Shown piece after piece: positions 17,041-36,112 of a DNA stretch of 64,000 nucleotides. Below the pieces are notes generated by a model that saw only the letters and a list, made by a program, of their open reading frames with translations, was not told where the DNA came from and did not search any database. The DNA comes from Pedinophyceae sp. YPF-701. Its lineage: Eukaryota > Chlorophyta > Pedinophyceae. The translations under genes and the position numbers were made by a program. The stretch's first letter is position 1. Every line of letters starts with the position of its first letter. Location of the stretch: assembly GCA_916048055.1 (NCBI GenBank), contig CAJZHL010000001.1:682001-746000 (forward strand), in the 5' to 3' direction.

Positions 17041-17299
17041 CAGCCAGGGGGGGCACCTCAGTGGAAGGCGCGGGCCGAGGCCGGCGGGCAGGAACCGGGC
17101 GGAAAGGCGGCGGCAAGAGGCGGAGGGAGCGAGCGGAGGGGCTCGCTCACGCTCGCTCTGTGAGAGATCAAAGCCTCTGATTCTAACAAAGCCCCTTGCA
17201 CCACTTGCCGGCGCGAGCCCAAACTTTGCATCAGAAGTATGGGTGCAAGGGCGGGGGCCAAGCCCATGCCACAGACTTTACACAAAAAGTAGGGGCGGG
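17041..17299 (+). repeat. Left terminal inverted repeat of the PLV
   Basis: The 259 bp from CAGCCAGGGG to AGGGGCGGG match the reverse complement of 35852-36112. I found only two differences, both 1-nt changes in run length (a G run near 17139 and an A run near 17284). Beyond the repeat, GTTCAATCCCC (17300-17310) is also present inverted at 35828-35838, after a 13-nt insertion on the right side. The stop codon of the first viral gene (17302-17304) lies directly inside it. Confidence 0.93.
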
Positions 17300-17301
17300 G
17301 T

Positions 17302-18147
17302 TCAATCCCCTTCCTCGGTCAGCTCGAGCGCGCTGAACCCTGTGATCGATGCAGTAGAGGCCTCCGTGCTGTCATAGGTGCTCTCTTCCTCTTCCTCTTC
17401 CTCCTCGTCCTCCACCACCGGCTCCTCCAGGGCCTCCAGGAACCCCTCGCGGTCCTCGGTGCAGGCACCCGCCTCCTTCAAGTTGTACCAGTGCTGTTGA
17501 CCCAGGTGCTCGACGATCGTGGTGAGAGCCTCGGGGGTCTCGAGGAGAGCCCACGGCGTGCAGTCGTCCTGGAGGCGCTCCAGCCGCAGCAGGCTCACCG
17601 GGGTCGTCTGCTGCACCCTGATCCACACGTACACAACCCCGGACGGCTTCGTGCGTGCGAGGGCTTCGACGACCGAGGGCCTGTCCGTGAGAGCGCGAAT
17701 GGTGCTGCGCTGGGGGTTGATGAACCGCAGGAGGAAGTTCTTCGACGTCTGGGAGGGCTTGAAGCGCGAGTTGGCCTTCCTGGGGCGCAGCTCCAGGGGC
17801 GGCTGCCAGAGCAGGTCGCTGTTGGCTGTGTGGTGGGAGAGCAGCGACGCCAGGCGCGCGGGTGCTTCGGCGGCGTGCTTCTCCTTGAGGAGGCCCCAGA
17901 TCCAGTCCACATCGTAGGTGATCTGCTTGTTGAGGACCGCTTTGTGCACCTTGGCCTGGTACTCGGCCTCGAGGGACAGCTCGGCCCTACGCTTCGGCAT
18001 TTTCGCGCAAGGGTCGACCTCAGTCGGTTCCTGCGAGCCGGGGCTGGTGACGCGCGGTGGCGGCCCCAGGCGGCATTGAGCCCTCGTAAAGGCCGCAAGG
18101 CACGGGAAAATATCGTCGCCAAAACTTGACAGAGAAGATACTACCAT
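17302..18147 (-). CDS. PLV protein of unknown function, 281 aa
   Basis: This is the leftmost viral gene, ending 2 bp from the terminal repeat. It is a soluble-looking protein with a Lys/Arg-rich middle and a strongly acidic C-terminus (a run of about nine Glu near residue 255). The ATG at 18147 was chosen because the candidate viral promoter motif (18168-18180) lies 21-33 bp upstream, as at other genes of the element. An in-frame ATG at 18000 (MPKRRAELS) would give 232 aa. No domain is recognised. The position next to the terminus would suit a DNA-binding or regulatory role, but that is a guess. Confidence 0.7.
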   Translation of the reverse strand: MVVSSLSSFGDDIFPCLAAFTRAQCRLGPPPRVTSPGSQEPTEVDPCAKMPKRRAELSLEAEYQAKVHKAVLNKQITYDVDWIWGLLKEKHAAEAPARLASLLSHHTANSDLLWQPPLELRPRKANSRFKPSQTSKNFLLRFINPQRSTIRALTDRPSVVEALARTKPSGVVYVWIRVQQTTPVSLLRLERLQDDCTPWALLETPEALTTIVEHLGQQHWYNLKEAGACTEDREGFLEALEEPVVEDEEEEEEEESTYDSTEASTASITGFSALELTEEGD

Positions 18148-18167
18148 CCTGATTTCTTATGTGTTTG

Positions 18168-18180
18168 GAGACAATATTTG
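18168..18180 (-). promoter_or_regulatory. Candidate viral promoter motif
   Basis: On the minus strand this reads CAAATATTGTCTC, 21-33 bp before the ATG at 18147, inside an AT-rich gap (18148-18236). It shares the T-rich run and TCTC end with the motifs before the capsid, coiled-coil and polymerase genes. Confidence 0.5.
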
Positions 18181-18330
18181 TGTTTTGACACACACTGTGT
18201 GTTTTTACATGTCAATTTTTGACCTCGGTTTTTGCCTCAGGCGAGGAAGATCATCACCGCGACCAGCACGTGCACGATCTTCACCACGAGCGACCCCAGC
18301 GCGATGGTCGTCCCGTGCCGTCTCAGCGCG

Positions 18331-18921
18331 TCAGCGAGCCTGCCCGCCCAGGCAGAAGGACGGCGTGCGAAAGCTGCGAAACCCCTTCAGCGCGGCTGCC
18401 AGTCCGTCGATCAGCCCCTCGACCCGGTCGTCCCGGACAATGTCCCGCAGCGGCTGGGGCAGCACCTCGCTCACGAGGTCGATGCCAGCGCGCAGGATGG
18501 CCTTCTTCAGGGACCCCTTGCCCTTCAGCCGGCGGGACCCCTGCAGGTGCTCGACCGCGGAGCGGACGCAGCCCGAAGGGTCCGTCTCGGCCAGTGGACC
18601 GAAGCGCGTGAGCATGGTGGCGCAGCGCAGGGCGTCGCGGGCGTCCTTCCCCGACAACCCTCTCATGCGGTCGATGACACGGCGTACCGCGCGCACGGCG
18701 ACCTCGACGGGCACTTCCGCACCGAGCATGGCGTGGACGGCGCCGATGGACACGTCCGGGTTCTTCTGTTCGGCCAGACGGCGCATCAGCAGCGCAACGG
18801 CGTCGTCCACCTCGGCCGTCTCCCTCTGCCAGTCCCGGACCGCGGCCGCCGCGTCCTCGTGGGACATGCCGTCGCGGAAGTGACGCAGGAAGCCGGTCAC
18901 ATGGTCCAGATCCGTTGCCAT
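18331..18921 (-). CDS. PLV protein of unknown function, 196 aa, probably frameshifted at its 3' end
   Basis: The protein starts MATDLDHVTGFLRHF and is helical and charged, with repeated Asp/Arg pairs. The frame ends at 18331 in an unremarkable tail. In another frame the DNA continues to a stop at 18237-18239 and encodes ALGSLVVKIVHVLVAVMIFLA, a textbook membrane helix. A 1-nt indel around 18350-18360 would join the two and give a C-terminally anchored protein of about 227 aa. The longer frame reaching 19188 was rejected because its upstream part is Arg/Ala-rich and it would cover the next small gene. A promoter-like motif sits at 18942-18953. Confidence 0.65.
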   Translation of the reverse strand: MATDLDHVTGFLRHFRDGMSHEDAAAAVRDWQRETAEVDDAVALLMRRLAEQKNPDVSIGAVHAMLGAEVPVEVAVRAVRRVIDRMRGLSGKDARDALRCATMLTRFGPLAETDPSGCVRSAVEHLQGSRRLKGKGSLKKAILRAGIDLVSEVLPQPLRDIVRDDRVEGLIDGLAAALKGFRSFRTPSFCLGGQAR

Positions 18922-18941
18922 CAGGTTCCTCCTACAGCAGG

Positions 18942-18953
18942 GACAGAAAAGAG
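18942..18953 (-). promoter_or_regulatory. Candidate viral promoter motif
   Basis: On the minus strand it reads CTCTTTTCTGTC, 21-32 bp before the ATG at 18921. It is a variant of the element's T-rich upstream motif. Confidence 0.45.
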
Positions 18954-18962
18954 AGGGGTACC

Positions 18963-19193
18963 TCACTGCGTCTTCATCCAGGGGCGCGTCCGCGCGGGGT
19001 CGTTCGTGTCCTTCAGCTTGCGCGCGGGCTGCTCGTGGACCTTCCACAGCAGGGCGTCTCGGCGGTCGTAGTAGCTCCCGGTCTCTGGCATGGGATGGAG
19101 ATTTTTTACCAGGGGCTGCCCGACGCTGCCGAACTGCTTGAACGTCTTCTGCTCCGCGAGCTGGCTGGTGGTGTCCGCGACCTTCCACAACAT
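18963..19193 (-). CDS. Small PLV protein of unknown function, 76 aa
   Basis: This short frame lies between the 196-aa gene and the capsid gene, same strand, with an ATG 27 bp after the capsid stop. The peptide (MLWKVADTTSQLAEQ...) is hydrophilic and Lys/Pro-rich. It contains two similar ALLWKVHEQ / MLWKVADTT segments, hinting at an internal repeat. No family is recognised. The tight packing and even residue composition favour a real gene, perhaps a minor virion component. Confidence 0.6.
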   Translation of the reverse strand: MLWKVADTTSQLAEQKTFKQFGSVGQPLVKNLHPMPETGSYYDRRDALLWKVHEQPARKLKDTNDPARTRPWMKTQ

Positions 19194-19220
19194 CGTCTCT
19201 GCTGCACAGATGTCACATTT

Positions 19221-20423
19221 TTAGTACGACAGCGCGACCTGCCGACCCGCGCCGATCTCGATCGACGAGGTGGACTTCACCCAGACCGTGACACGCATGT
19301 TCGTCAGGTTCCCATTGTAGCGGACCGTGCACGGAATAGAAGCGCCCTGCGTGTCGACCCCCGAGGCCAACTTCGAGTCCCCTAGCTCGTCCGAAATATT
19401 CAGGGGCGTTGCGAAGAGGAACGTGAGGTTCTGGTACGTCGTGCGGTCCACCACCAAGCTGTCTGTGTTCTGGTGTGCGGCGTGTGCCGTGCCACTCATC
19501 ATAGCGAAACACTCGGCGATGCCACGAGCCTGGGCCACCAGCTGGTTGGAGACGTCCAGGCTCCACGTCGTCGTCTCGTCGCCTCCGATGGAGTACTTGA
19601 TGAGTGGCGGGGCGGCCACGCTTGGGCTGATGGTCGCCGCCACCGAGGAGGTCGAATCGTACGTCTCCACGCGGGTGGTGGCGGCGACCCAGTCGACAGA
19701 GCCGCTGTTTACGGTGAACGAGCAGTCCTTCTGGCCGGCGGGGAAGTGGTGGTCCACGTACCTGTCGTAGGACAGGACCAGGCCCTCCGACTCCGCGCGG
19801 GCGATGAGCGCCTGCTCGAACGAGCTGTCAGCGAAGGACACCAGGGGACACACGAGGGAGAGGTTCGTGAGTTCCACCTCCGAGGCGCCGGCTGCGTTGG
19901 GGAGGATGGACTGGCCGCCCGGGCGGACGCGCATGCGGATCTCGATCTCTGGAAGGATGCTCAGGGGAAGCATGCGGGTACCCCCCTGGAGCGAGGGGAA
20001 GGTCGGCATGACGAAGGGAAGAGTCGTTGCGTTGCTGCCGCCGACCGCGTTCGACTGCCCAAAGGACATGCCCTCCGTAACAGGCGCCTTCGCTGGTCCG
20101 GTGCCCATGATGCCGAGCGCTCGGACCAACCCGGCGAAGTCCGAGATGGACGACAGCTGGCGACCGCCAACCAGGATGTCGAACCTGGAGAACAGGACGG
20201 ACGGGTGGCCGGTGGCGGTGCCGGCGGCCGAGAGCCCCGCTGAGCCGCAGAGGGCCATCGAATCGGTGTCGAGGAACCCAGACTGAGGGAGCCTAAAGAT
20301 GACCTCATCGCCGCTGACGGCCGACGTCGAGGTATCCGGCCGCAGGGTGACCACCGAGCGCCGGGTCCCGAGGGCCAGGGACTTGGCCATGCGCAGGAGC
20401 TGCGGAGGCACTGCGGAATTCAT
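19221..20423 (-). CDS. Probable PLV major capsid protein, 400 aa
   Basis: The 400-residue protein is rich in beta-prone residues (Ser, Thr, Val, Gly), has no membrane segment or enzyme motif, and is followed by the cluster of small proteins and the packaging ATPase. PLV capsid proteins sit in this position and share the short N-terminal arm (here MNSAVPPQLLRMAKSLAL) before a double jelly-roll. The assignment rests on length, composition and gene order; no conserved capsid signature can be verified by eye. The ATG at 20423 is preceded at 21-33 bp by GATTTCTTTTCTC. Alternatives are another virion protein, with one of the smaller neighbours as capsid. Confidence 0.55.
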   Translation of the reverse strand: MNSAVPPQLLRMAKSLALGTRRSVVTLRPDTSTSAVSGDEVIFRLPQSGFLDTDSMALCGSAGLSAAGTATGHPSVLFSRFDILVGGRQLSSISDFAGLVRALGIMGTGPAKAPVTEGMSFGQSNAVGGSNATTLPFVMPTFPSLQGGTRMLPLSILPEIEIRMRVRPGGQSILPNAAGASEVELTNLSLVCPLVSFADSSFEQALIARAESEGLVLSYDRYVDHHFPAGQKDCSFTVNSGSVDWVAATTRVETYDSTSSVAATISPSVAAPPLIKYSIGGDETTTWSLDVSNQLVAQARGIAECFAMMSGTAHAAHQNTDSLVVDRTTYQNLTFLFATPLNISDELGDSKLASGVDTQGASIPCTVRYNGNLTNMRVTVWVKSTSSIEIGAGRQVALSY

Positions 20424-20443
20424 GCTTGTGTCTACTCCCCTTC

Positions 20444-20456: not shown

Positions 20457-20457
20457 A

Positions 20458-20904
20458 TCAGCGGATATAGCTGTTCAAAGCCAGCAATCGTAGGTACTCC
20501 TCGCTGTCGTCCGGCTCGCGCAGAGCAATGCTCATCCACCAGTCGGCGTTGTTTGGCTCCTTCGAGCAGTGCGACTGGATGCGCACGTAGAACGACTGCA
20601 GCTGGCCCTCGTCGACCAGGATGGAGTGAGCGCCCCAGGGGTCGTGATACACCAGGCGCGTCGAAGGCGACGGGATCGAGAGCCACACGTCGTTGAGCCC
20701 GTTTACGGAGTAGGAAGTCGCCAGCGAGCATCGCACCTCCACCTGGGGACACACGACCGGCACTGTAAGGACGTGAAGATGGGCGATGCAGGCGTACATC
20801 CGCCTTCGCGACGATCGGATCGGCGGGAGCTGGAAGCCGTAGAATCCGTTCCCAAGGTCCTGGGCCTCGCTCTTTGAGAGATGCACGAACCGCGTGGGCT
20901 TCAT
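20458..20904 (-). CDS. PLV probable structural protein, 148 aa
   Basis: This compact protein is rich in beta-prone and aromatic residues (DVWLSIPS, RLVYHDPWG, SFYVRIQSH) and ends in LNSYIR. It lies directly upstream of the capsid gene, on the same strand. Position and composition fit a minor capsid or penton-like single-jelly-roll protein, but no signature is recognised. The ATG at 20904 is 18 bp from the next gene's stop. Confidence 0.6.
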   Translation of the reverse strand: MKPTRFVHLSKSEAQDLGNGFYGFQLPPIRSSRRRMYACIAHLHVLTVPVVCPQVEVRCSLATSYSVNGLNDVWLSIPSPSTRLVYHDPWGAHSILVDEGQLQSFYVRIQSHCSKEPNNADWWMSIALREPDDSEEYLRLLALNSYIR

Positions 20905-20922
20905 CGCTACTCCAGTAGCAGA

Positions 20923-21420
20923 CTATTCCTCGGGCTGCAGGGACAGCACCACCGTCCAGTCCGCGGAGATGTTGCTCCCGGAGCACTTGGGTCCGTCGAC
21001 GCGGCGCCAGTACAGCTCGACGTCCGGCCCGCGCAGGACGCTGTCGTCCACGTGCGAGAAACCCCGGGTCGGCATGATGGCCTGGCCCACGGTGTAGGTG
21101 CCGATACAATCGCTCTCTCTTTTGGTGTGGCTGTCGTAGGACCAGCGCGAGTGTGCCTGGCCCATGTGCAAGGTCAGCCCGGATATGCCGGTCTGGACCT
21201 GGAGCGGAGAGACCCATTCTGCCATCACCTTGTACTCCCCCTGGAGCAGCGGCGACGTGCCCTGGGCGATGGGAATCCGACAAGCGTTGAAGTCGCCCTC
21301 CACGCGATCAATGCTCCGCAGGACCATTTGGTAGCTCCGCCGTGGCGGCGCTCCTTCCGGGGTCTTCCTCGAGTAGTCGGAATTGACCAAGGTCGGCGGG
21401 TTGTAGCTTTGGTTGTTCAT
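20923..21420 (-). CDS. PLV probable structural protein, 165 aa
   Basis: The protein opens MNNQSYNPPTLVNSDYS and has alternating beta-like segments (YKVMAEWVSPLQV, SGLTLHMG, DWTVVLSLQ). It may be a minor capsid or penton protein of the virion module. Its first 113 bp overlap the 3' end of the 104-aa gene in another frame, an unusually long overlap for this element. No family is recognised. Confidence 0.6.
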   Translation of the reverse strand: MNNQSYNPPTLVNSDYSRKTPEGAPPRRSYQMVLRSIDRVEGDFNACRIPIAQGTSPLLQGEYKVMAEWVSPLQVQTGISGLTLHMGQAHSRWSYDSHTKRESDCIGTYTVGQAIMPTRGFSHVDDSVLRGPDVELYWRRVDGPKCSGSNISADWTVVLSLQPEE

Positions 21421-21622
21421 GGATGACGTCCTCTATCCACGGCGCAGAAGAAGTTCCTTCGCGGAGCAGCTCCCCAAGCTTGACGCCAGCAGGGGGCGTG
21501 AGGCCCTCCTTCTTCATCCATGCCAGCACGATGCCCTCGGACACGAGCGCCCCGTGCGAGTGCTCCCGGTCCACCTCGGCGATCCAGTCCAGGTAGGTTT
21601 GCTTGTCCACAAACGTCGTCAT
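21308..21622 (-). CDS. Small PLV protein of unknown function, 104 aa
   Basis: The frame begins MTTFVDKQTYLDWIAEVDRE and its ATG overlaps the TGA of the ATPase gene (ATGA, 21619-21622), typical of co-expressed viral genes. It is acidic and helical in the first half, with a Pro-rich tail that overlaps the following gene. The much longer frame reaching 22135 is a shadow of the ATPase gene. Confidence 0.55.
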   Translation of the reverse strand: MTTFVDKQTYLDWIAEVDREHSHGALVSEGIVLAWMKKEGLTPPAGVKLGELLREGTSSAPWIEDVIHEQPKLQPADLGQFRLLEEDPGRSAATAELPNGPAEH

Positions 21623-22479
21623 CCTACACATGTGTCTAGATTTTTCCTGTACTGCGTACCTCGAGGGCAGGACGCGAAGTACGTGAACCACGCGTAGGGG
21701 TCGTCCTCCGTGCTGCCGTTGTACATCTCCAGGACCTTCTCGGCGGGCGTGTGGCGGTCGGACAGCTCCTCGCATATCATCTCGCGCTCTCTGTCGCGGA
21801 AGCCACCACTGATAAAGTAACAGTTTAGATTGTTCCGCACGAGGAGGGGCATGGCACATCGCCACGTCTGCGACGCGAACAGCATGGACAGCCCGAGGTG
21901 ACGATGGCGTAGGATCGTGCGGATGGTGCTGTGGTTGGCGGACCGCGGGAACACCTGGGCCTCCCCCGCGCAGTCGTCCACCACGAGCAGGCAGTGGGGC
22001 TTGACCAGGAGCTCTTTCTTCGGGGGCTCGTAGTCGCGATCTTCGAGGGCCTGGAGCTCCCACATTTTCAGCCCCCCCTCGCCCTTGGACATCCAGCGGT
22101 CGTATAGCTTCTTGTACTCCTTCTCCGCCAACCACTCTTCGATCTTTCCGCGCTGCTCCGCGAAGATGGTCGGCAGCATGGACGCCTCGTCGTGCACGGA
22201 CGCGCGTTCGCCGTAGCGTTCCAGCGTCTGCTCCACCTTCGGGTCGCTGCCGGCGGTGGGGCTGAGCCAGTACAGGTGGTCGATCAACTTGTGGTCCAGG
22301 ACCTTCGTAGCGAACGACAGCATCATCGTGGTCTTGCCCGCCCCTCGTTTGCCCACGACGTATCCGAGCAGCGCGTGCACGCCGCCCATGGGAGGGAGCC
22401 CTGGCGGTCCCGGACGAGGGGGGTCCTCTTTGACCTTCAAAGGAGAATACTTCAGGTTGGGAAAACGCTGGTTGGTCAT
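21619..22479 (-). CDS. Genome-packaging ATPase (A32/FtsK-HerA type), 286 aa
   Basis: The protein shows a Walker A loop GKRGAGKT at about residues 43-50 and a Walker B strand LLVVDD near 165-170. After this, a conserved arrangement (RHRHLGLSMLFASQ, then a polar strand NLNCYFISGG) resembles the sensor and arginine-finger region of viral packaging ATPases. The role is to drive viral DNA into the preformed capsid. Its length matches PLV and virophage ATPases. It sits with the capsid genes, overlaps the next gene by 4 bp, and is preceded by a T-rich motif at 22495-22507. This is the most secure marker of the virion module. Confidence 0.88.
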   Translation of the reverse strand: MTNQRFPNLKYSPLKVKEDPPRPGPPGLPPMGGVHALLGYVVGKRGAGKTTMMLSFATKVLDHKLIDHLYWLSPTAGSDPKVEQTLERYGERASVHDEASMLPTIFAEQRGKIEEWLAEKEYKKLYDRWMSKGEGGLKMWELQALEDRDYEPPKKELLVKPHCLLVVDDCAGEAQVFPRSANHSTIRTILRHRHLGLSMLFASQTWRCAMPLLVRNNLNCYFISGGFRDREREMICEELSDRHTPAEKVLEMYNGSTEDDPYAWFTYFASCPRGTQYRKNLDTCVG

Positions 22480-22494: not shown

Positions 22495-22507
22495 CTCACG
22501 GAAATTC
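22495..22507 (-). promoter_or_regulatory. Candidate viral promoter motif of the ATPase gene
   Basis: On the minus strand it reads GAATTTCCGTGAG, 16-28 bp before the ATG at 22479. It resembles GAATTTCCCCGTG before the neighbouring repeat-protein gene. Confidence 0.4.
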
Positions 22508-23266
22508 CGATTTTAGAATGTCTCGGATGATTCGCGCCCTCGTGTATGCTCGCTTGTTGTTCTCCATTCTTTCTCTTGTTTGCTGCATGTGTATTGCCTG
22601 GGGGTCCTGTAAGGCGAGAAACTCGTCGATAAGCTTCTCACGCCGCATGTTATTCAAGGCTCTTTCGCGCTTTTCTTTCTTGCTGCGTGTCATCTGGCTG
22701 GGTCCTGCCAGCGCGCTGTCTTGCAGAGTGTCTTCCACGGCGCTTGCTTGCAATGCGCTGTCTTGCAGAGCTGCGCTGTCTTGCAGAGCTGCGCTGTCTT
22801 CCAGAGCTGCGCTGTCTTGCAGAGCTGCGCTGTCTTGCAGACCTTCGCTGTCGCTGTCGCTGTCTTCCAGAGCTGCGCTGTCTTGCAGAGCTGCGCTGTC
22901 TTGCAGAGCTGCGCTGTCGCTGTCGCTGTCTTGCAGAGTGCTGTTTTGCAGAGCTGTGTCATCTTGGATCGGGGCGGCACCTAGCTCCTGGATTGGCACC
23001 GGAGGAGCCGGGGTCGTGGGCGCGGGGCGCATGGCGCGCAGCATGGCCTCTCCGAAGGCGGAAGCTGCGGGGTCCTGCATCGACGGCCCGATCACGCGCG
23101 GGATGCCGAGGGGGACCATGTAGGGGTGCCCCAGAACGGGTCGAACCCGGGACGGCACCTGCCGCTTCGGCACCTGCCGCTTCGGCACCTGCCGCTTCGG
23201 CGCCGGGCGTTGTTCCTCCGTGGTGTTGATGTGCACGTTCACCGTCTGCTCTTGGCGCTGCGTCAT
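22496..23266 (-). CDS. PLV repeat protein with LQDSAA repeats, 256 aa
   Basis: Three zones are visible. The N-terminus has a basic tandem KRQVP motif (about residues 24-38). The centre (about 110-190) is built of LQDSAA/LEDSAA hexads broken by DSDSD runs. The C-terminus is a charged helix (SKKEKRERALNNMRREKL... onward). The centre is acidic, Ser-rich and presumably disordered. The gene's ATG overlaps the lipase stop by 4 bp. Such low-complexity proteins can act as scaffolds or condensate formers, but nothing here proves a role. Confidence 0.7.
   Translation of the reverse strand: MTQRQEQTVNVHINTTEEQRPAPKRQVPKRQVPKRQVPSRVRPVLGHPYMVPLGIPRVIGPSMQDPAASAFGEAMLRAMRPAPTTPAPPVPIQELGAAPIQDDTALQNSTLQDSDSDSAALQDSAALQDSAALEDSDSDSEGLQDSAALQDSAALEDSAALQDSAALQDSALQASAVEDTLQDSALAGPSQMTRSKKEKRERALNNMRREKLIDEFLALQDPQAIHMQQTRERMENNKRAYTRARIIRDILKSEFP
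22735..22945. repeat. 18-bp tandem repeat encoding LQDSAA units
   Basis: The plus strand shows repeated GCAGAGCTGCGCTGTCTT units, with variants CCAGAG and GCTGTCGCTGTC inserts. All units keep the reading frame, so selection or recent slippage on a coding repeat is likely. Confidence 0.85.
23155..23205. repeat. 15-bp tandem repeat encoding KRQVP units
   Basis: CACCTGCCGCTTCGG is repeated about three times near the 5' end of the 256-aa gene and keeps the frame. Confidence 0.75.
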
Positions 23267-23928
23267 GCTGGTGGCTCCTGATCATACACGGGGAAATTCG
23301 TGGCGTCGTGTTTGCTGAGGCCGTCTTGCTGTTCCACTACGTCGATTGTGCCCGGGAACGCAGGTGCGGCTGCGTGAATGATGTCCCCCGGAATGACGTG
23401 GTTGGTGATGTTGGCCTTGGGGTCACGGACGTGCATGAAGCTGGGCACCACAGCTCCCATGTTGAACGTGTGGGCTCGCACCCCTGTCGCTGACGCCGCA
23501 TGGTTTGCAAGGCTTCCCCCGAGCGAGTGCCCGGTGATGACCACGTTTTCCTTCCCCCCGGCGGCCTCGATCGCCTGGTCGACGACCTGGACCGAGTTGC
23601 GGAAGCGGCCGTTGAGACCCTCCTCGCCAAGAGCGATGGCCAGGTCTGCCCACGCGTCCGACAGGCGGTGCTTCCCTTTGAGATCTGTTCCGCGAAAGAC
23701 GACTGCGTGCTTCCCGTCGTTGCGCTTGTACACTGAATAGTCCGAGCCATCCCCAGACAAGTCGGGCTGGTATTCGTACCCTCGGGTCCGCGCGGTCGCG
23801 GCGCGCTTGGAGACGTCTCTCTCGTAAGCCAGAATGCTCAGGAACGCCATGTCCTTCGGCTCGCTTTGGTGCGTGGGGGCCACCCATCGGCGGTTCCGCG
23901 GATCGTCCTCGTCGAACACAAGCCGCAT
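23263..23928 (-). CDS. Class-3 lipase (alpha/beta hydrolase), 221 aa
   Basis: The nucleophile elbow GHSLGG (Ser at about residue 135) follows a strand ENVVITG, and an oxyanion strand HAVVFRGTD lies upstream, as in Lipase_3 enzymes. An Asp in VIPGDIIH and a His in LSKHD are candidates for the rest of the triad. Start is the ATG at 23928; the longer frame begins at a TTG. No signal peptide is visible. Lipases are known cargo of PLV and virophage genomes and could act on host membranes or in virion entry or exit; which is not shown here. It overlaps the repeat-protein gene by 4 bp (ATGA). Confidence 0.82.
   Translation of the reverse strand: MRLVFDEDDPRNRRWVAPTHQSEPKDMAFLSILAYERDVSKRAATARTRGYEYQPDLSGDGSDYSVYKRNDGKHAVVFRGTDLKGKHRLSDAWADLAIALGEEGLNGRFRNSVQVVDQAIEAAGGKENVVITGHSLGGSLANHAASATGVRAHTFNMGAVVPSFMHVRDPKANITNHVIPGDIIHAAAPAFPGTIDVVEQQDGLSKHDATNFPVYDQEPPA
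23287..23299 (-). promoter_or_regulatory. Candidate viral promoter motif
   Basis: On the minus strand it reads GAATTTCCCCGTG, 21-33 bp before the ATG at 23266, inside the 3' end of the lipase gene. Confidence 0.4.
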
Positions 23929-23935: not shown

Positions 23936-24448
23936 CTACCCAAAGAGACTTTTGTACATGGCGTGCGCCCGGCTCTCTGCGCTTTGCATGACCCGCTGGC
24001 GCCGGACTTGGACGGGGGTGGGCTGTGCAGTCTCGTCCGGCGTGCTGGGACGGATGGCCTCGTCTGCCGGCGTGTCGGGCCGAATGGGCCGCGTATCCGT
24101 TCGATGCAGCTGCTTTTCCAGGCGATCGAGCTCCTTGTGTCGTTTCTCCAGCATCTTCAGGCGCAGACGGGCGTCCCTCGCCTTGAGCTCGCGCTCCTTC
24201 TTCTCGACCTCCTCCTCGAGCATGTTTGGGTCGTCCCGCTTCGCCTGGGCGCGCTCGCGCTTGCGTTGGGCGGTGATCTCGCGTCCGCGGGCCAAATTTT
24301 CCAGCCTCTTCTGGCGGGCCCTCTCCTTCAGAGCGGCCGCGGCGTCGGAGTCCCTCGTCTCTGAAGGCGCGTTCTCGACTGGCTGGGCATCGCTCGCGGC
24401 ACCCACCGGCTGCTCTTTCTCGGGCTCCTGGGGCTTTGCAACAACCAT
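23936..24448 (-). CDS. PLV coiled-coil protein, 170 aa
   Basis: The central part is a highly charged helix (Lys/Arg/Glu with Leu spacing, about residues 55-130) between Pro/Thr/Ala-rich ends, and it ends HAMYKSLFG. The ATG at 24448 (MVVAKPQEPEKEQ) is chosen; the longer frame starts at a TTG and would place the promoter motif inside the gene. No family is recognised. Its place next to the fibre-like gene suggests a virion or assembly role. Confidence 0.65.
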   Translation of the reverse strand: MVVAKPQEPEKEQPVGAASDAQPVENAPSETRDSDAAAALKERARQKRLENLARGREITAQRKRERAQAKRDDPNMLEEEVEKKERELKARDARLRLKMLEKRHKELDRLEKQLHRTDTRPIRPDTPADEAIRPSTPDETAQPTPVQVRRQRVMQSAESRAHAMYKSLFG

Positions 24449-25717: not shown

Positions 25718-25743
25718 TCCTTCCTTGCACAAGGGTAAGAGAG

Positions 25744-28700: not shown

Positions 28701-29292
28701 CGGCCATGTCATCGGGGACGTCTCCGGTCTCCAGGCGGCCCTGGACGGCAAAGCGTCGTCAAGCCACGGGCATGTCATCGGGGACGTCTCCGGTCTCCAG
28801 GCGGCGCTGGACGGCAAAGCGTCGTCAAACCACGGGCATGTCATCGGGGACGTCTCCGGGCTCCAAAGCGCGCTGGACGGTAAGCGAGACGACGCCCCTG
28901 TGACATGGGCAGAGATCACGGGGAAGCCTCGGTACGAGAGGACCCTCGGCCTTGCGGCCGGTGTGCCCACGGGGATCTCAGGCCTCTGGCGCGACGCCGT
29001 AAACGCACTGGGGCTCACGGACCCGAACAAGACGTACCCTGTCCGGTTGGTCGTTACAGGGCGCGCCGCGGGGACTCGCCCTGGTTACAACGAAACGGCG
29101 TACGCGATGCAGCCTATCTTCGACGTGGGGTCCGGAGAGTACTCCCCAGACTATCCACTCTGCACTGCCGGTGTCATCGCGAACTTCGTGGGGGGCGGCA
29201 CGGTGGACGTGCTGCTAACCGGGTTCGAACAGGGTTCGCCGACCATCGAGGCAGACACGAATTGCACCGCGCGGCTCGTCTGGAGCGTGTAA
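25744..29292 (+). CDS. Large repeat-rich fibre (receptor-binding type) protein, 1182 aa
   Basis: The N-terminal ~200 residues look like a virion-anchoring domain. Several trimeric coiled-coil stretches with Asn/Ser/Thr-rich heptads follow (about 240-360, and the TCNTGL.TRL repeats near 775-840). The middle is a beta-rich domain. Five units of a 22-residue repeat HGHVIGDVSGLQAALDGKASS lie at about 945-1045, before a C-terminal globular head. This organisation is that of phage and viral tail or capsid fibres that bind the host surface. It starts the rightward block and is followed, 25 bp later, by the S74 chaperone protein. Confidence 0.72.
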   Translation: MSNTFELVRVNLCAQTTQGVDDTSDGFFSMVGPFGELNSRALRAATMFLPPKETVQDGDANAAFEQYPICPRYAGDRQLFARDGTQYAHGDIVAVALEQSSNKEPVHVYNCNIFDSNGTLVSSTPVHEQWRPFEAVHGATIYSHAVDMLMADKCLIGRNQMTSTEVAEERSAEPRGDGVSVYSWQAQTHPHLAFDDARNPQNPKRVLTVGVDGTIQGQRAEFSEINVAGTIVANEIIFGGESNLTNVFGSNLADLSAFSGRLVQAENDIDALEGTAFSHGSRLDALETNQSSLTTTVNSQGVTITSNTSRIDALENAQTAAQGSNAAATGSNSSNIEALDDRVTQLEGSNASNAIAFSTSNLYCCNAHVRNDLIVRDGEIFEDPTGVFAPGTSNGEHTWGAPNQTLLPEAQTELATIETKQDDAILFLHQGISATQDLAQFYVGGYNAPVFQVKSSFPGQGVERLRVVGDMRIVDGDLVAPVSTYVYSLTFENIPEGPQELRTQLATYILPESTPVHRQYGLFRDGVDQVSTIGTDPTFEGLYFVPWSFDPTADAAGFRAYVEPRTTAAYTRGKPHVLAQGVTGAVLWTNQTGTTNEHLLEWRAESAFSLEFKLSSPSTTSLMRRVYDQATRTWGAWSNEKVDNDVAKLVVHAGGLADFKLQVTSPAGTTLSVDDLTSVSQTVVMRMLDELRYTPFNDDDRLVLSVPRSEAPKRLVQVTQDSDDGFDPGDPLDWVLPIRHLFYDHQTQDQEESVISVVKPSVVEDARSNITGLDTRVSAAETCNTGLGSRLTTAETCNTGLSTRLATAEGDISAIQTCNTGLGTRLDTAEGDISALDTRLAAEEARSSYSNLTIQGELTEGTATLPADPKLTEEHAASIEVVEMASSKPMILCENWSGPVFSVLPQGDTRVVVVGRVRADGIDGVQWADIQGVPSTFVPEEHGHQVSEVEGLQAALDGKASSNHGHVIGDVSGLQAALDGKAASSHGHVIGDVSGLQAALDGKASSSHGHVIGDVSGLQAALDGKASSNHGHVIGDVSGLQSALDGKRDDAPVTWAEITGKPRYERTLGLAAGVPTGISGLWRDAVNALGLTDPNKTYPVRLVVTGRAAGTRPGYNETAYAMQPIFDVGSGEYSPDYPLCTAGVIANFVGGGTVDVLLTGFEQGSPTIEADTNCTARLVWSV
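28569..28883 (+). repeat. 66-bp tandem repeat (five units) in the fibre gene
   Basis: Each unit encodes 22 residues beginning HGHVIGDVSGLQ. Units are nearly identical at DNA level (only a few substitutions such as GGC/GGG and AAC/AGC), so they were probably copied recently or kept alike by recombination. The first (HGHQVSEVEGLQ) and last units are more diverged. Confidence 0.85.
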
Positions 29293-29317: not shown

Positions 29318-30223
29318 ATGAAGGTCATCAACCTCTCTACCAGCACCAACTCGTTCTCGACGGGCCTGTTCGTCAACGGTTCCACGACGGCGGAAGCGCT
29401 GGTGGTAGGCGGCAGCAACCTCTGGGCCACTCCGCAGGCAGGTGGTTTCGTCGGAATCGGCACGTCCAACCCGGCGGTGCGTTTGCACGTGAAGGGCGGC
29501 TCGCAGCAGGTGGACCATGGGGACGGCAGTGCAACGCTCTATGGTCCCAACTCGGTGTCGGCCTACTTGCGTGTGGGAGCGGACATCACCACTCACTCGA
29601 CGGTGAATGCCGATCGGGCGCAGGTGATCTCCTCGGACGGTGGCCTGCACATCGACTCGGCTCCGAACAAGCGCCTGTTCCTGAACTACTTCAGTTCGAA
29701 CTGTGACATCACGATGGCGGCGAACACCGCGGCCGCATCTAGCGTCGGAGTCGGCGTCGCCATGCCAACGGAGAAGCTCCACGTGGCGGGCAACGTAGCT
29801 CCGGACGCCGCCAACACGCGGTCGTGCGGGACGCTGTCTCTGCCCTGGTCCGACGTCTTCTCGCAGAACGGCGTGACCACCACCTCCGACCAGCGGGACA
29901 AGGTCGACGTGGTCGACGAGACCCTCGGGCTGGAGTTCGTCCGCGGGCTGCGGCCGGTCACCTGGCGCTGGGCAGAGAAGATGATTCCAGCAGCGGATAC
30001 CTCGAACATCACCCAGGTTGAGGGGTCGCGGCGTCACCATGGCCTGCTGGCGCAGGAGCTGCGCGCCGCTCTGGGCACGGACGCCGACGGCATGTGGTGT
30101 CTGTCGGACCCTGCGGACCCCAACTCGAAGCAGGCCGTGCGCCTGGAGCAGCTCATCGGGGTCTTGATCAAGGCGATCAAGGACCTGGACGCGCGGTGCT
30201 CGGCGTTCGGCATCCCGGTGTGA
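29318..30223 (+). CDS. Fibre protein with C-terminal peptidase-S74 chaperone domain, 301 aa
   Basis: Two LHV(K/A)G steps of the type GIGTSNPAVRLHVKGG, common in fibre shafts before S74 domains, lie in the first 170 residues. The C-terminal ~110 residues show the S74 pattern: TSDQRDKVDVV with the catalytic Ser and Lys, LGLEFVRGLRPVTWRW, HHGLLAQEL, and a closing helix EQLIGVLIKAIKDL. In this family the domain helps a trimeric fibre to fold and then cuts itself off at the conserved Ser. Here it is on a separate, short gene next to the giant fibre, so it may act on its own shaft or in trans. Confidence 0.85.
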   Translation: MKVINLSTSTNSFSTGLFVNGSTTAEALVVGGSNLWATPQAGGFVGIGTSNPAVRLHVKGGSQQVDHGDGSATLYGPNSVSAYLRVGADITTHSTVNADRAQVISSDGGLHIDSAPNKRLFLNYFSSNCDITMAANTAAASSVGVGVAMPTEKLHVAGNVAPDAANTRSCGTLSLPWSDVFSQNGVTTTSDQRDKVDVVDETLGLEFVRGLRPVTWRWAEKMIPAADTSNITQVEGSRRHHGLLAQELRAALGTDADGMWCLSDPADPNSKQAVRLEQLIGVLIKAIKDLDARCSAFGIPV

Positions 30224-30477: not shown

Positions 30478-30882
30478 ATGGGAGCCGAGACGCAGCAGCG
30501 GGCACAGCCCGAGACGCAGCAGCGGGCGCAGCCCGATCGCCGTGAGTACTGGCGTGAGAGGCGCCAAAGGCTACACAACGACATCACATGGAAGCGCCTC
30601 GAGTGGCGCGTCGCCGGAGGGCAGACGTCCTTCAACAAAAAGACCTACGAGAGATTCGGGGAGGACCGAGTCAAAGAGCTCCTGGAGCGGAAGGAACGCG
30701 GCGAGCTTCGGCCGGAGCATGACTCGTACATGGCGGACAAGTCCATGAAGATGAGGAAGCGCATCGCGCGCGGAGAACACTCGCTCAAGTTCTGCCCGGC
30801 CACGGTCGAGACGTTTGGTCGCGAAACCATCGAGCGCTGGGTGGCGGAGCTCCAGCCGGGCCGGGAGCCGGTGTGGACTTAA
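30478..30882 (+). CDS. Small basic PLV protein, 134 aa
   Basis: The N-terminus repeats ETQQRAQP twice and then becomes Arg/Lys-rich and helical, with Trp and aromatic residues (TWKRLEWRV). It ends EPVWT. An AT-rich gap (30428-30477) precedes it. The high charge would fit a nucleic-acid-binding protein, such as a terminal or replication accessory protein, but no motif proves this. Confidence 0.6.
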   Translation: MGAETQQRAQPETQQRAQPDRREYWRERRQRLHNDITWKRLEWRVAGGQTSFNKKTYERFGEDRVKELLERKERGELRPEHDSYMADKSMKMRKRIARGEHSLKFCPATVETFGRETIERWVAELQPGREPVWT

Positions 30883-30958: not shown

Positions 30959-33900
30959 ATGGCAATCCAACGAGACAGTGTCAACCGCGCCCTGCTGCGC
31001 GCAGCACCGCAGACCCTGGCGGCGGCCCGCGCCGTCGTCGATCGCTACAACTGGGCAGGACCAGCCCCCACCCCTGTCCAGACCCCGTCCGGCAACTGGC
31101 GCATCCCCACGGGAGGTGCCCCCGCGCTTGGTCGCTCGACTGGAAACCAGGGAGCTGGCAACCAGGGAGCTGGCAACCAGGGCATTCCCCCCCCTGCCCA
31201 AGGCCAGGGCGCTCCTGCCGGCGCCATCCAGGCCGCGTCCTTCCGTCGTCGGCGGCTGCAGGGCGTCACGTCCCTCGCTCAGGCGCAGCAGCGCCTCGCG
31301 TCGTTCCTGGCCAACGGGGGCAGCATTGCTGGGTTTACCAACCCCCAGGTCGTCGCGGGCCGGCGGGGGGGCTACGTCATCGTCGAGGCTCCTGCTCCGC
31401 CGCCCCCCCCGGTCCTTCCTTCCTTCGACCCGGCGGCCTACGAAGTGGTGATCGCCGACGTCTTCGTGGACCGCGGTGGGGAGGCGGGCTTCGAGCTCCG
31501 CTACGAAGGGGTCGCCTTCGTAGCGGAAAGCGCCCGCGTGGAGAGCATCACGACGCTTACGGCTCCGACGAACAGGGACGTCAGCGGCGCGCAGGGCTAC
31601 ATCCTGCTGGGCGACAACGCCGACCCTGCCATCGCGGACCCCGGCTTCCAGAACATCCTCGGCTTCATCCGCGATCAAGGCTATTCTGTTCTCATCGTCA
31701 TTCGGTCCAGGTCCCCTCTCAGCGACATGACGGACCTCAACCGCGCCGAGGAGCTCCACAGCACGCTGTACAACCAGGACGTGGCCTTCGGCGAGGCCGT
31801 GCAGACCGACATTGCGTTTGCCGCCGACTGGATCCCCGCCGAGGCCCTGCGGCCGGACAGCGTGCGGCACCGCAACGGCTGCTTCGGCAACGCGCTGCGC
31901 GAGGCCTGTCCTCAGCTGCTCGACCGCCGTCGCGTGGGCAAGCGCATCTACGAGCTGGTCCTCGGGTGCCAGGGACGAATGAGCATGCGCCAGGGTGCGG
32001 AGCTGTGCCAAGAAATCGGCGTGAGCCTTTGCGTGATCTCCGCCATGGGGGAGGTGCTCTGCTCGTACAAAGCCCCCGACCGGGCAGGGTACACCAACCG
32101 CGTCAACATGGTGCTCCACGACGGCCACTTCTTCGCGGTTCCCGCGGGTCGGGACAAGGGCGGCGGGTTTGCCCACCGCTTCCCTTGGTCCGAGGAGGAG
32201 GGGCGCTTTGTTCCCAACCGCACGCGCCTGCAGCCTCGCCTGGTCCTGGAGCCCCGTCCGCCCGGCAAGGTCGGCCCCTCGGAGCTGCTGTCGGAGGAGG
32301 GCGTGCTCGAGGTCATCCAAGGCGTGCTGCAGGGCCGCATTCCCGACACCACCTCGCTCGTCACGCGCGGCAACATGCGCAGGCTGCTTGCCGTCATCAT
32401 CCACCGTCTCAAGGTGCTTCCGGCCGTCCAGACCAAGTCGTCCAACTGCATCTCGGAGATCTCTGTCATGCTGCCGTCGGTCAAGAGGGGGGTCCAGAGG
32501 CGGCTGGTGGTGCGATCGCACGACGACAACAGCGACTGCGTGTTGACCCCGGAGGGGTACCCGTGGCTAAACCGCATGCGACGGAGCCTGATGTCCTGGG
32601 CCTCCCGCAGCCAGTACTCCGCCGAGATGCTCAACTGGTTCCGGGCCCACCCCGTCACGGCCCTCAACCGCCGGTTCCGCGAGGTGCGACCGGACCACAG
32701 CATCATTGGCCTGGACCTGTGCCGGGCCTACACCGCGGCGATGAAGAACATCGAGCAGTGGCACGTGCTGTACACGTGGGACCGTCCGCGCGCGTACCTC
32801 GGAGAGCAGATCGACCCGGAGGCCTGGTACGTCGTCCGGGCGACCGAGGAGGGTCGTGGGGAGGTCCACGCTCGCTGGCCCATCCTCCTTCCCGCTCGCC
32901 ACTCGCGCGTCCAGGGCAAGGACCTGCTCGAGCGCCCGGAGATGCACTCCCTGGTGGAGATCCTGCAGTGGCTCCCGGTGGAGTGCACCGTGGGGAACAC
33001 CACGAAGCAGGTCATCCGCGAGATGTACGAGAGCGACCTGGCCGACGGACAGCGCAAGAACGTGTGCAACATCGCCAGCGGGGTCATCGAGAAGAAGGTC
33101 GCCCAGGACCACCGGGCCCACGTCTTCCTGTCGATCGAGGGGGCCCAGCAGTGGATCAACACCTACGGTGGCACGCTGCACACGCACGCGATCGACAAGG
33201 AGACGGGGGAGGAAATCGTGGGCACCCTGGACGACGTGGGTCGGTACCTGGTGTTCTACACCGTCTCTCGCGGACACAAGGCGGACATGCACGCGGGTTG
33301 GGTCCCGATGAAAGAGCAGATCTACATGTGGTGCCGCCGGACTATGCAGGGGCTGTTCGACCACTGTGTGGAGGAGGGGGTCGTGCCGCTGAAGATCCAG
33401 ACCGACTGTCTGATGGTGGAGGACAGCCCGGCGGCGCGCGCCATGGTCGACCTGCCGGACGGGTGCCAGGGGTACGAGGACCTGGGGCGGGTGAAGCTGG
33501 ACCTCCCCAGCGCGGAACACGCCGCTGGGGCGCCGGACAAGGTCATCGACAACACCATAGTGGAGGTCTTCGATGGACGCCGGCCGCGGGAGGTGCACGG
33601 GATCGAGGGCGAGCAGAAGGTGGTCCTTGAGGCCCTGTACCCGGGGTCGGGGAAGTCCCACGCATGGAAGCAACACCTCAGTGGAAGGAAGGACGAGGTC
33701 ATGGTCGTGTGCCCGACGCACAAGCAGCGCAGGGCCATGGAGCAGGAGGGGTGGACAGCGTGCACGTATCACAGCTTTGCGGGCTTTGGGGTGCTGCCGG
33801 AGCAGACATGCAAGCGTGTGGCTCTGGACGGCGTTCGGGTGGTCGTCTTCGAGGAGCTCATGCAGTGCCCGAACCTGCGCGTGCTCTCGTGGGTCTACCA

Positions 33901-34864
33901 GTGGGCGCGCTCGACCGACCTGGACGTGGTCGCGACCGGCGACGTCCACCAGCAGACGACCCCTGGGTTGACCATGCAGCAGCTGCGGAGCATCGTCCAC
34001 GACCTGTTCCCCGCTTGCGTGTGGCTCACAGGCAACATGACGCTGCCTCCCTCCCAGCACGTCCGGCTGGAGCGCATCCGGGCCATGCTCTTCGAGGGGG
34101 ACGCCACGCCGGAAGAGCGGCAGAAGAGCTTCCTGGCGGAGTTCCCTCACGTGTCTCTCGACGAGTGCCGCGGAGACGAGTGGGCCTTCATGGCCTACGC
34201 GAGGACCAGCCTGGCGCTGCTGCACAATTCGCGTCTGGTCGACGGACGGGTGCTGCAGGTCGGCGAGGAGTACCTCTGCCGGAGGCCTGTGGGTGGGTGC
34301 GTGCTGGGGAACACGTACCTCCTCCTTCGCGCCTCGGAGGACACCGCGACGCTCCAGGGCGACGACGAGGAGCACGTGGTCCCCCGCGAGAAGCTCGTGT
34401 CCCACTTCGAGCCCGCTCTGGGAGGGCACTCGGTGATGAGCTCGCAAGGGGGGAGGCTCTCGGAGACCACAAAGCTTGGGATCATGGACGTCGAGCTGGC
34501 CTTCGACCCGCAGCGCGTGTGGGTCGCGGTGACGCGGTCGCGCAACCTGGACCGAGTGTACATCGTGAGGAACAAACTGCCTTTGGCTGCGTTCCGTGGT
34601 GTGGCCACGCGTATCCAGGGGTACAAGGCGCAGGACCGCCGCGCCGGACGGACGTGGGAGGACGCCGAGTATGTCACAGAGCGAGACGTCTACGACCTGC
34701 TGAAGGACGCGCGGTACAGGTGCATGCACTGCGCAAGGGCCCTGGGGGAGTCATGGGTGTTGAACAGGCGAGACGCCGAGGCCGCGCATCTTCGGGAGAA
34801 CGTCGAGGTGTGCTGCGCCAAGTGCAACCACGTGATCGCGGGCGTCTGTGAGACGCCACGATGA
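30959..34864 (+). CDS. Replication protein: divergent polymerase-like domain fused to SF1 helicase, 1301 aa
   Basis: The first ~130 residues are Pro/Ala/Gln-rich with a GAGNQ repeat. A Cys/His domain follows: NGCFGNALREAC near 305-315 and VLHDGHFF near 385-390, reminiscent of OTU-type cysteine peptidases. Next is a palm-like region with candidate family-B polymerase motifs: A (IGLDLCRAY, ~585), B (RKNVCNIASG, ~699) and C (IQTDCLMVED, ~815). These are divergent: motif A lacks SLYP and motif C has TD, not DTD. The helicase has Walker A PGSGKS (~896), VVVFEE as motif II (~960), GDVHQQ as motif III (~994) and a late VAVTRSRNLDRVYI (~1189). The end carries CMHC and CCAKC pairs, a probable zinc ribbon or HNH-like module. 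It should copy and unwind the viral genome. The stop overlaps the integrase start by 4 bp. Confidence 0.7.
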   Translation: MAIQRDSVNRALLRAAPQTLAAARAVVDRYNWAGPAPTPVQTPSGNWRIPTGGAPALGRSTGNQGAGNQGAGNQGIPPPAQGQGAPAGAIQAASFRRRRLQGVTSLAQAQQRLASFLANGGSIAGFTNPQVVAGRRGGYVIVEAPAPPPPPVLPSFDPAAYEVVIADVFVDRGGEAGFELRYEGVAFVAESARVESITTLTAPTNRDVSGAQGYILLGDNADPAIADPGFQNILGFIRDQGYSVLIVIRSRSPLSDMTDLNRAEELHSTLYNQDVAFGEAVQTDIAFAADWIPAEALRPDSVRHRNGCFGNALREACPQLLDRRRVGKRIYELVLGCQGRMSMRQGAELCQEIGVSLCVISAMGEVLCSYKAPDRAGYTNRVNMVLHDGHFFAVPAGRDKGGGFAHRFPWSEEEGRFVPNRTRLQPRLVLEPRPPGKVGPSELLSEEGVLEVIQGVLQGRIPDTTSLVTRGNMRRLLAVIIHRLKVLPAVQTKSSNCISEISVMLPSVKRGVQRRLVVRSHDDNSDCVLTPEGYPWLNRMRRSLMSWASRSQYSAEMLNWFRAHPVTALNRRFREVRPDHSIIGLDLCRAYTAAMKNIEQWHVLYTWDRPRAYLGEQIDPEAWYVVRATEEGRGEVHARWPILLPARHSRVQGKDLLERPEMHSLVEILQWLPVECTVGNTTKQVIREMYESDLADGQRKNVCNIASGVIEKKVAQDHRAHVFLSIEGAQQWINTYGGTLHTHAIDKETGEEIVGTLDDVGRYLVFYTVSRGHKADMHAGWVPMKEQIYMWCRRTMQGLFDHCVEEGVVPLKIQTDCLMVEDSPAARAMVDLPDGCQGYEDLGRVKLDLPSAEHAAGAPDKVIDNTIVEVFDGRRPREVHGIEGEQKVVLEALYPGSGKSHAWKQHLSGRKDEVMVVCPTHKQRRAMEQEGWTACTYHSFAGFGVLPEQTCKRVALDGVRVVVFEELMQCPNLRVLSWVYQWARSTDLDVVATGDVHQQTTPGLTMQQLRSIVHDLFPACVWLTGNMTLPPSQHVRLERIRAMLFEGDATPEERQKSFLAEFPHVSLDECRGDEWAFMAYARTSLALLHNSRLVDGRVLQVGEEYLCRRPVGGCVLGNTYLLLRASEDTATLQGDDEEHVVPREKLVSHFEPALGGHSVMSSQGGRLSETTKLGIMDVELAFDPQRVWVAVTRSRNLDRVYIVRNKLPLAAFRGVATRIQGYKAQDRRAGRTWEDAEYVTERDVYDLLKDARYRCMHCARALGESWVLNRRDAEAAHLRENVEVCCAKCNHVIAGVCETPR

Positions 34865-35787
34865 GGCCCACGGACGAGGAGGCCATGGCGCTGTGTGCTC
34901 AGGCCTATGCCGTCACGCTGGGCTCGCAGAAGACCGTGTACGAGCGCGTCCGCCACCAGGGCGTCACGATGCGCCAAGTCAGAGAGTTTTGCCGACGTTC
35001 CGCGGCCTCGGCGGTCGACGGGAGCGGCGGGCGGAGGCTTCAGGCGCTGAACTGGAGCCCCTGGCCCTCAAGCACGATCCCCGGCCGCGTCCTCTCGATG
35101 GACGTCCTCGACTACTCGAAGCAGCCGATTCTCGACGTCTTTGCGGGCCTCTCCGTGCCGTACGCGGTCCTCATCGTCGACACGGCGTCGCGCCTGGCCA
35201 CCGTGCTTCCTGCGCTGGACAAGAAGGGCTCGCTCCTGGCGTCCACCAAGGTCCTTCTCCAGTGCTATCCCGACTGCTGGAAGGTCTTTTGCGACGGAGA
35301 GGGGTCGTGGGCGTCGGACGACTTCAAGGCGTGGCTGGCGGCCCGGAAAATCGAGCGCGTCCTCTGCTCCCATACCTCGCACGCGGAGTCGTGCATCCGG
35401 ACCTTGAAGTTGAAGATGGCGCGCGCGAAGGTGGTGGGTCCGGTCACCTGGCAGACGTTGCAGGAGGTCGTGATGCTGTACAACTCGCAGAAGCACAGCA
35501 GCATCGGCATGAGCCCCCTTGATGCACACGGCGACCCGCACCGGTGCGCGCTCGCCATCAACCGGGCTCTCGAGGCGCGCGGGGCTCAGGAGCTGCCAGA
35601 AGACCTGCGTGGCAAGCTCGCGCGCATCGCGGTGCGCGGCAAGAAGAAGGGGGGGGCTGCCTGGAGTTCACAGGTATACAAGGTGCTGGGCGGGTGGGTG
35701 CACATCCGACTGGAGCCCCTGGAGCCTCGCCCTGGCCAGAAGGAGATCGTGCGGGGCAGGAAGGAGGTGCTGATCGTGCAGGAGTGA
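34861..35787 (+). CDS. Retroviral-type (rve) DDE integrase, 308 aa
   Basis: The RNase-H-fold core shows MDVLDYSK (first Asp ~81), then IVDTASR, the second Asp in FCDGEGSW (~145) and the catalytic Glu in SHAESCIRTLKLKM (~176). A C-terminal helix MLYNSQKHSSIGMSPL is typical of Polinton integrases. An SH3-like basic C-terminal domain follows (KVLGGWVHIRLEPLE). The enzyme would join the element's ends to host DNA, giving the observed target-site duplication. All three acidic residues are present and the frame is intact. Its ATG overlaps the polymerase-helicase stop (ATGA). Confidence 0.88.
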   Translation: MRPTDEEAMALCAQAYAVTLGSQKTVYERVRHQGVTMRQVREFCRRSAASAVDGSGGRRLQALNWSPWPSSTIPGRVLSMDVLDYSKQPILDVFAGLSVPYAVLIVDTASRLATVLPALDKKGSLLASTKVLLQCYPDCWKVFCDGEGSWASDDFKAWLAARKIERVLCSHTSHAESCIRTLKLKMARAKVVGPVTWQTLQEVVMLYNSQKHSSIGMSPLDAHGDPHRCALAINRALEARGAQELPEDLRGKLARIAVRGKKKGGAAWSSQVYKVLGGWVHIRLEPLEPRPGQKEIVRGRKEVLIVQE

Positions 35788-35851
35788 GTGGAAAATTTTG
35801 CTAGGAAAATTTGCCTGGGAAAGGGGGGGGGATTGAACCTGTGAGATTGCG

Positions 35852-36112
35852 CCCGCCCCTACTTTTTTGTGTAAAGTCTGTGGCATGGGCTTGGCCCCCG
35901 CCCTTGCACCCATACTTCTGATGCAAAGTTTGGGCTCGCGCCGGCAAGTGGTGCAAGGGGCTTTGTTAGAATCAGAGGCTTTGATCTCTCACAGAGCGAG
36001 CGTGAGCGAGCCCCCTCCGCTCGCTCCCTCCGCCTCTTGCCGCCGCCTTTCCGCCCGGTTCCTGCCCGCCGGCCTCGGCCCGCGCCTTCCACTGAGGTGC
36101 CCCCCCTGGCTG
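35852..36112 (-). repeat. Right terminal inverted repeat of the PLV
   Basis: The 261 bp are the reverse complement of 17041-17299 apart from two 1-nt differences in run length. The outer end reads TGGCTG, complement of the left CAGCCA. The 64 bp between the integrase stop (35787) and the repeat are AT-rich, followed by a G run and the inverted copy of GTTCAATCCCC (35828-35838). Confidence 0.93.

Follow-up and report, generated by a model that had tools for sequence, protein, structure and literature searches.

An endogenous polinton-like virus, probably of the Tlr1 type, in the genome of the green alga Pedinophyceae sp. YPF-701

The window analysed here, a 64,000-nucleotide stretch of a 2.05-Mb contig from Pedinophyceae sp. 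YPF-701, contains an element of 19,072 bp (17041..36112) whose ends and gene set strongly suggest an integrated polinton-like virus (PLV). A left terminal inverted repeat (TIR) of 259 bp (17041..17299, + strand) faces a right one of 261 bp (35852..36112, - strand); the only differences between the arms are two single-base changes of run length, affecting one run of G and one of A, and the 259 aligned positions contain no substitution. Copies of ACCCC, the target-site duplication (TSD), lie at 17036..17040 and 36113..36117 and abut the TIR ends exactly on both sides. Both features had been reported in an initial annotation of this DNA made from the sequence alone; both were confirmed to the base. 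Two random 5-mers drawn from the 500-bp flanks agree by chance at a frequency of 0.0021. Since both junctions are C-rich, the duplication taken alone is moderate evidence; it becomes convincing in combination with repeats that end exactly there. The element is of PLV size (14-40 kb) and, like PLVs, bounded by TIRs, and its GC content is 64.5%, compared with 71.7% in the left and 68.9% in the right flank. When the left TIR was searched against the 27.9-Mb genome, nothing but the two arms of this element came up, although this search skips very common words and thereby does not prove absence elsewhere. A stretch resembling a tRNA T-arm, GGTTCAATCC, is found at 17299-17308, on the inner border of the left TIR, and at 35830-35839, about 12 bases inside the right TIR; an Rfam search of the window returned nothing at gathering score, and no tRNA.

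Sixteen uninterrupted, non-nested open reading frames (ORFs) make up 92.1% of the element. GC at their three codon positions ranges over 0.57-0.74, 0.43-0.52 and 0.69-0.91, the same kind of pattern in all 16, and curated Pfam cut-offs were passed by two fibre genes only (PTR, Peptidase_S74). Searches of the genome with the ATPase, integrase, replicase and major capsid protein (MCP) at E<=0.001 each time returned the window element plus the same two loci, on contigs C10 (~650-670 kb) and C29 (~442.5-470.8 kb), which hold copies of a second, divergent PLV, referred to below as element 2. Ten of the 16 ORFs have an element-2 counterpart at E<=1e-3, with 23-51% identity. The frames of integrase, packaging ATPase, capsid and replication protein are all open, in agreement with the initial annotation. 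Its further remark, that the element lacks introns in an intron-rich host, stands for the element as judged by its long uninterrupted frames, while intron richness of the host was checked only indirectly: several light-harvesting complex (LHC) matches are in pieces, and SelO matches fall in two separate ORFs.

A block of genes on the - strand comprises, in this order, the MCP, two small ORFs of 148 and 165 aa, the ATPase, a low-complexity ORF and a lipase. The candidate MCP (19221..20423, 400 aa) is 29-31% identical to its element-2 counterpart, and its low-confidence structure model resembles double-jelly-roll capsids (Foldseek E 5.7e-9). Among the fold matches, the virophage MCPs of Mavirus and Sputnik ranked below giant-virus capsids, and an uncharacterised protein of TvV-S1 was included. 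The 148-aa ORF (20458..20904) and the 165-aa ORF (20923..21420) adjoin the MCP and are conserved in element 2 (31% identity, and 30% over 109 aa, respectively), with no family match in Pfam; the former is a probable minor capsid protein, the latter a probable minor capsid or virion protein. An FtsK/HerA ATPase of the A32 type, a hallmark of PLVs, is encoded at 21619..22479 (286 aa). It carries Walker A (GKRGAGKTT), Walker B (VVDD) and an RHRHL motif, with Walker A/B and RHRHL common to the ATPases compared; it is 44% identical to the element-2 ATPase, which matches Pox_A32 at 9.4e-4, below the cut-off.

The integrase gene (34861..35787, + strand, 308 aa) starts with an ATG that overlaps the replicase stop codon by 4 bases. 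Its assignment to the rve (DDE) type runs only through element 2, whose integrase matches rve at 7.5e-6, below the Pfam cut-off, and is in turn matched by the window integrase at 5.5e-16 (27% identity). Asp81, Asp84, Asp145 and Glu176 are conserved in both proteins and may serve in catalysis; an integrase profile compared with PDB gave four matches, none of them an integrase. The combination of an rve-type integrase and a short TSD is characteristic of Tlr1-type PLVs, and there are published PLVs in which an rve integrase goes with TSDs of 5 to 6 bp, among them a 5-nt case (PMC12220804).

The replication protein named in the initial annotation is present and open, and can be described more closely. 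Encoded at 30959..34864 (+ strand), this 1301-aa protein is 23% identical to its element-2 counterpart and looks like the published Tlr1-like helicase, a fusion of palm, superfamily 1 (SF1) helicase and HNH domain, rather than the canonical polinton protein-primed family B polymerase (pPolB). Its landmarks are Cys308/His390, palm motifs A (584), B (699, by eye) and C (812), Walker A (894) and an HNH-like end (1252-1291). An hhalign comparison of the central part against nine protein-primed polymerases of phages placed motif A (GLDLCRAYTAAM) opposite DVNSLYPAQM of phi29; motif C (IQTDC) came to lie opposite CDTDS. The palm score was 29.3, compared with 16.9 for the reversed query and at most 23.25 among 200 column shuffles; against the phage polymerases, no signal came from the N-terminal or helicase parts. 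Motif C reads TDC in both elements, the first Asp being missing, and a palm motif C without this residue has been described for the Tlr1-like helicase, in which a vOTU domain precedes the palm (PMC11071308); Cys308 and His390 are conserved in both elements. An SF1 helicase follows the putative palm (RecD2 match at 7.8e-5 with a two-sequence profile), and the element-2 replicase has Pfam matches to AAA_19 and Viral_helicase1, below their cut-offs. The C-terminus shows CxxC..H..N..CxxCN in both elements and is HNH-like, with weak matches to endonuclease VII (0.003) and, for the element-2 replicase, to phage HNH (E 1).

This architecture bears on whether the element might instead be a bona fide Polinton/Maverick transposon with an exonuclease-bearing pPolB and an Ulp1 protease. 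An rve integrase, TIRs, a TSD, a capsid and an ATPase are common to Polintons as well, yet the replicase here bears an SF1 helicase and an HNH-like end, and no protease, Ulp1-type or other, was matched by Pfam among the 16 ORFs, a search that diverged proteases could escape. DNA_pol_B_2 was matched neither in the replicase nor in the host genome, the latter a weak negative as the control of the genome search matched nowhere. We consider a Polinton very improbable.

We regard it as highly probable that the element is a complete, singly inserted endogenous PLV, most likely of the Tlr1 type, in a nuclear chromosome of a photosynthetic alga. The proposal of a complete integrated PLV in the initial annotation is thus supported, by TIRs, TSD, open frames and homologous elements in the same assembly, and is extended by fibre and lipase genes and the two related elements. 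Several observations weigh against this reading. The window integrase alone matches no integrase model in Pfam, and the window replicase alone no polymerase or helicase model. The HHalign probability of the replicase palm is only 5.5. In addition, the conserved RKxxxNxxxG read by eye as motif B is not the stretch with which the phage motif B aligns, and this makes the Tlr1 part of the assignment less secure; the palm is its weakest step. The structure model of the replicase failed (29.4), and the vOTU domain that Cys308 and His390 may mark is proposed by motif and by eye. For the MCP, model confidence (predicted local distance difference test) was 42.7, Foldseek TM-scores to the query were <=0.34 and VIA root-mean-square deviations mostly 9-12 A, and the probable minor capsid proteins are named for their position. 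Finally, none of the searches made beyond this genome brought up a close sister sequence.

Comparison with element 2 helps to judge whether the locus is genuine. The MCP, 148-aa ORF, 165-aa ORF, ATPase, low-complexity ORF and lipase agree in order and strand between the two elements, while the blocks of fibre, replicase and integrase are rearranged. An assembly artefact, in which a free viral genome was joined to host contigs via its repeats, is conceivable in so far as inverted repeats can mislead assemblers. Nevertheless, the element is flanked by host sequence on either side in the contig, ACCCC is shared exactly at the junctions, the TIR is only ~260 bp long and was found nowhere else by search, and much of the gene set recurs in divergent form on two other contigs, which supports a real viral genome over an assembly accident. 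Such an artefact is very unlikely. Given that divergent elements reside in one genome, related viruses appear to have entered the host lineage more than once.

The C10 and C29 copies of element 2 differ at 38 of 18,914 columns over five blocks (99.8% identity); a right-end block outside that count is 97.5% alike, and one minor-capsid-like gene shows a single-base length change. A pair of inverted repeats of 336 bp, 100% identical, lies near the ends of the C29 copy, and the left ends of both copies contain stretches of N. In the C29 copy, a gene at the left end and the fibre gene carry inserts. Two nested inserts are found in this copy only (L019:4247-9890, approximate, and L021:1795-4274); one has several internal inverted repeats, and the other is bounded by a 4-base overlap resembling a duplication. 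The sequences to the right of the two copies are 84% alike over 2 kb, with a 5S-rRNA-like stretch (by eye) on the C10 side, and both copies may sit in a repeated region. One element-2 ORF (L016:2399-3670, C10 copy) has a C-terminal half that by eye looks like the N-terminus of the element's own replicase, which may mark a partial duplication of that gene. A decayed fragment on contig C6 (~774.3-775.4 kb; L027:1501-2600) appeared by eye to combine an S74-like piece with a stretch like the 453-aa ORF described below; protein comparison recovered the short S74 piece only.

The remaining genes of the window element include two fibre proteins on the + strand. The first (25744..29292, 1182 aa) contains phage-tail repeats (PTR, Pfam E 1.3e-26) and is 36% identical to its element-2 counterpart. 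The second (29318..30223, 301 aa) ends in a Peptidase_S74 chaperone of endosialidase (Pfam E 9.6e-10); similarity to element 2 is confined to the first 63 residues (51% identity), and the counterpart there has no S74 match in Pfam. On the - strand, a lipase-like alpha/beta hydrolase (23263..23928, 221 aa) carries GHSLGGS and is 35% identical over 150 aa to its element-2 counterpart; it scores 21.0 bits with Lipase_3, just under the cut-off of 22, while the counterpart reaches 23.9, above it. An ORF of up to 453 aa (24482..25843, - strand) has a hydrophobic segment and a coiled-coil-like tail (by eye), is 25% identical over 284 aa to a 412-aa ORF of element 2, and is possibly a virion- or fibre-associated protein; begun at its first ATG it runs into the divergent fibre gene, so that the true start may lie further in. 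Six ORFs have no element-2 counterpart at E<=1e-3. Five lie on the - strand: a 281-aa ORF with an acidic C-terminus (17302..18147) and a 76-aa ORF (18963..19193), both without match, a 196-aa ORF without meaningful match (18331..18921), a repetitive 256-aa ORF rich in A/L/Q/D/S (22496..23266), whose position is taken in element 2 by a different low-complexity ORF with no significant match, and a charged 170-aa ORF, coiled-coil-like by eye (23936..24448). The sixth is a basic 134-aa ORF without match on the + strand (30478..30882). Tlr6F (DUF5754) had no Pfam match among the 16 ORFs.

How such an element would propagate can be sketched from known PLVs, on which the steps of insertion, copying, packaging and escape are modelled; ends, duplication, gene set and kinship are seen directly. 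Reactivation, or co-infection with a larger virus, would act as the trigger. Copying of the linear genome by the palm/SF1-helicase fusion would start at the TIR ends, probably through protein priming; the A32-type ATPase would pack the DNA into a double-jelly-roll icosahedron with phage-like fibres, and the lipase might help the particle to leave the endosome, a role proposed for such enzymes (PMC4642659). The integrase would process the TIR ends and insert linear DNA with a 5-bp stagger, giving rise to the ACCCC duplication.

The near identity of the TIR arms suggests that the last replication or insertion was recent, and TIR identity has been read in this way elsewhere (PMC12220804); the initial annotation had suggested a recent insertion or an element that can still move or make virions. 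The element might nevertheless be a viral fossil, silent and immobile, whose complete appearance is due only to its recent insertion; this reading concerns its activity and is compatible with PLV identity. It is a single copy by TIR search, and most endogenous PLV genes are reported to be silent in Cymbomonas (PMC10675990) and Oxyrrhis (PMC12721341); on the other hand, its TIRs are free of substitutions, its core frames are open, and the near-identity of the element-2 copies over the compared blocks suggests that such elements multiplied or were copied fairly recently in this genome. We give a fossil slightly less than an even chance. It is rather unlikely that the element represents a new PLV lineage (of family level or deeper, and common to the co-resident elements) as a provirus that still functions, is inducible or called up by a giant virus, and forms virions; if true, a small alga would carry its own satellite-virus defence.

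Outside this genome, a profile of the ATPase found four distant ATPases only among 5.8 billion protein sequences, and the lineage therefore looks new. Neither the MCP nor replicase residues 250-1301 had a match in that collection, where the ~8,000 top word-sharing candidates were scored. Scans of IMG/VR with the ATPase (the element's or that of its metagenome relatives), replicase, MCP and fibre, the integrase not being included, confirmed no relative; these scans need short conserved peptides, and distant kin can escape them. The ATPase had no match in prokaryote genome contigs, nor did the ATPases in phage records, among which the element-2 replicase found three weak matches. The literature searched for pedinophyte polinton-like viruses contained no description of the element, which is weak evidence.

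As to the host, 24 LHC matches in the genome indicate a photosynthetic alga, and one LHC sequence looks green-algal by eye. NCLDV Capsid_N had no match in the host genome; the control matched nowhere, and absence is thus not shown. As to whether the element interrupts a host gene, a C5-methylase fragment lies to its left (15220-15444), and the genome-wide list of this domain has no further match near the element. The C5-cytosine methylase domain matches at 26 places in the genome, three of them (on contigs C32, C21 and C24) with identical scores; these may belong to a repeated element.

The element is a well-preserved new member of a group already known from many protists. Here a PLV with precise boundaries, an rve integrase and a replicase that is probably Tlr1-like can be compared with a divergent second element in the same algal genome, which is small and contiguous, so that excision, expression and any dependence on a helper virus become testable within one host. 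Capsid and replicase were recognised only through a structure model and the second element, which suggests that such proviruses are easily missed.

Integrating PLVs with an rve integrase, TIRs and a 5-6 bp duplication are a published kind, and integrated PLVs are described as widespread in protists and green algae (PMC10120064, PMC4642659, PMC10675990). The Oxyrrhis OmPLV shares a giant fusion of SF1 helicase and PolB and TIRs of a few hundred bp, but places the helicase first, followed by exonuclease and polymerase, and is reported to have a tyrosine recombinase and no TSD (PMC12721341). PLVs that integrate in or infect green algae, namely those of Monoraphidium neglectum (PMC4642659), PLVA, PLVB and PLV2 of Cymbomonas (PMC10675990) and TvV-S1, resemble ours in the capsid module, the ATPase and, in some, a lipase (PMC4642659, PMC10675990). 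By description only, the M. neglectum element combines a pDNAP with an rve integrase, the latter as here (PMC4642659), and those of Cymbomonas have pPolB or a TVpol-helicase (PMC10675990). Cryptophyte PLVs come closer in their TIRs of hundreds of bp, 5-6 bp TSDs, S74 and PTR fibres and, in many, an rve integrase; in cluster C1 an HNH-fused helicase gene lies immediately upstream of the integrase, as does the gene of the probable replicase here. They differ in the N-terminal position of HNH on the helicase, the reported absence of lipase genes and their large expansions, compared with one copy here (PMC12220804). Tlr1 of Tetrahymena resides in another host and ends its replicase in GIY-YIG rather than an HNH-like domain, and the MCP and replicase described here are too diverged from Tlr1-type PLVs for the sequence searches used. 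Yet Tlr1 shares the rve integrase, and the PLVs with Tlr1 or Tlr1-like helicases share the double-jelly-roll capsid and the ATPase, those with Tlr1-like helicases being described with a large protein that joins a pPolB-like palm to an SF1 helicase and a C-terminal GIY-YIG or HNH domain (PMC11071308, PMC12721341).
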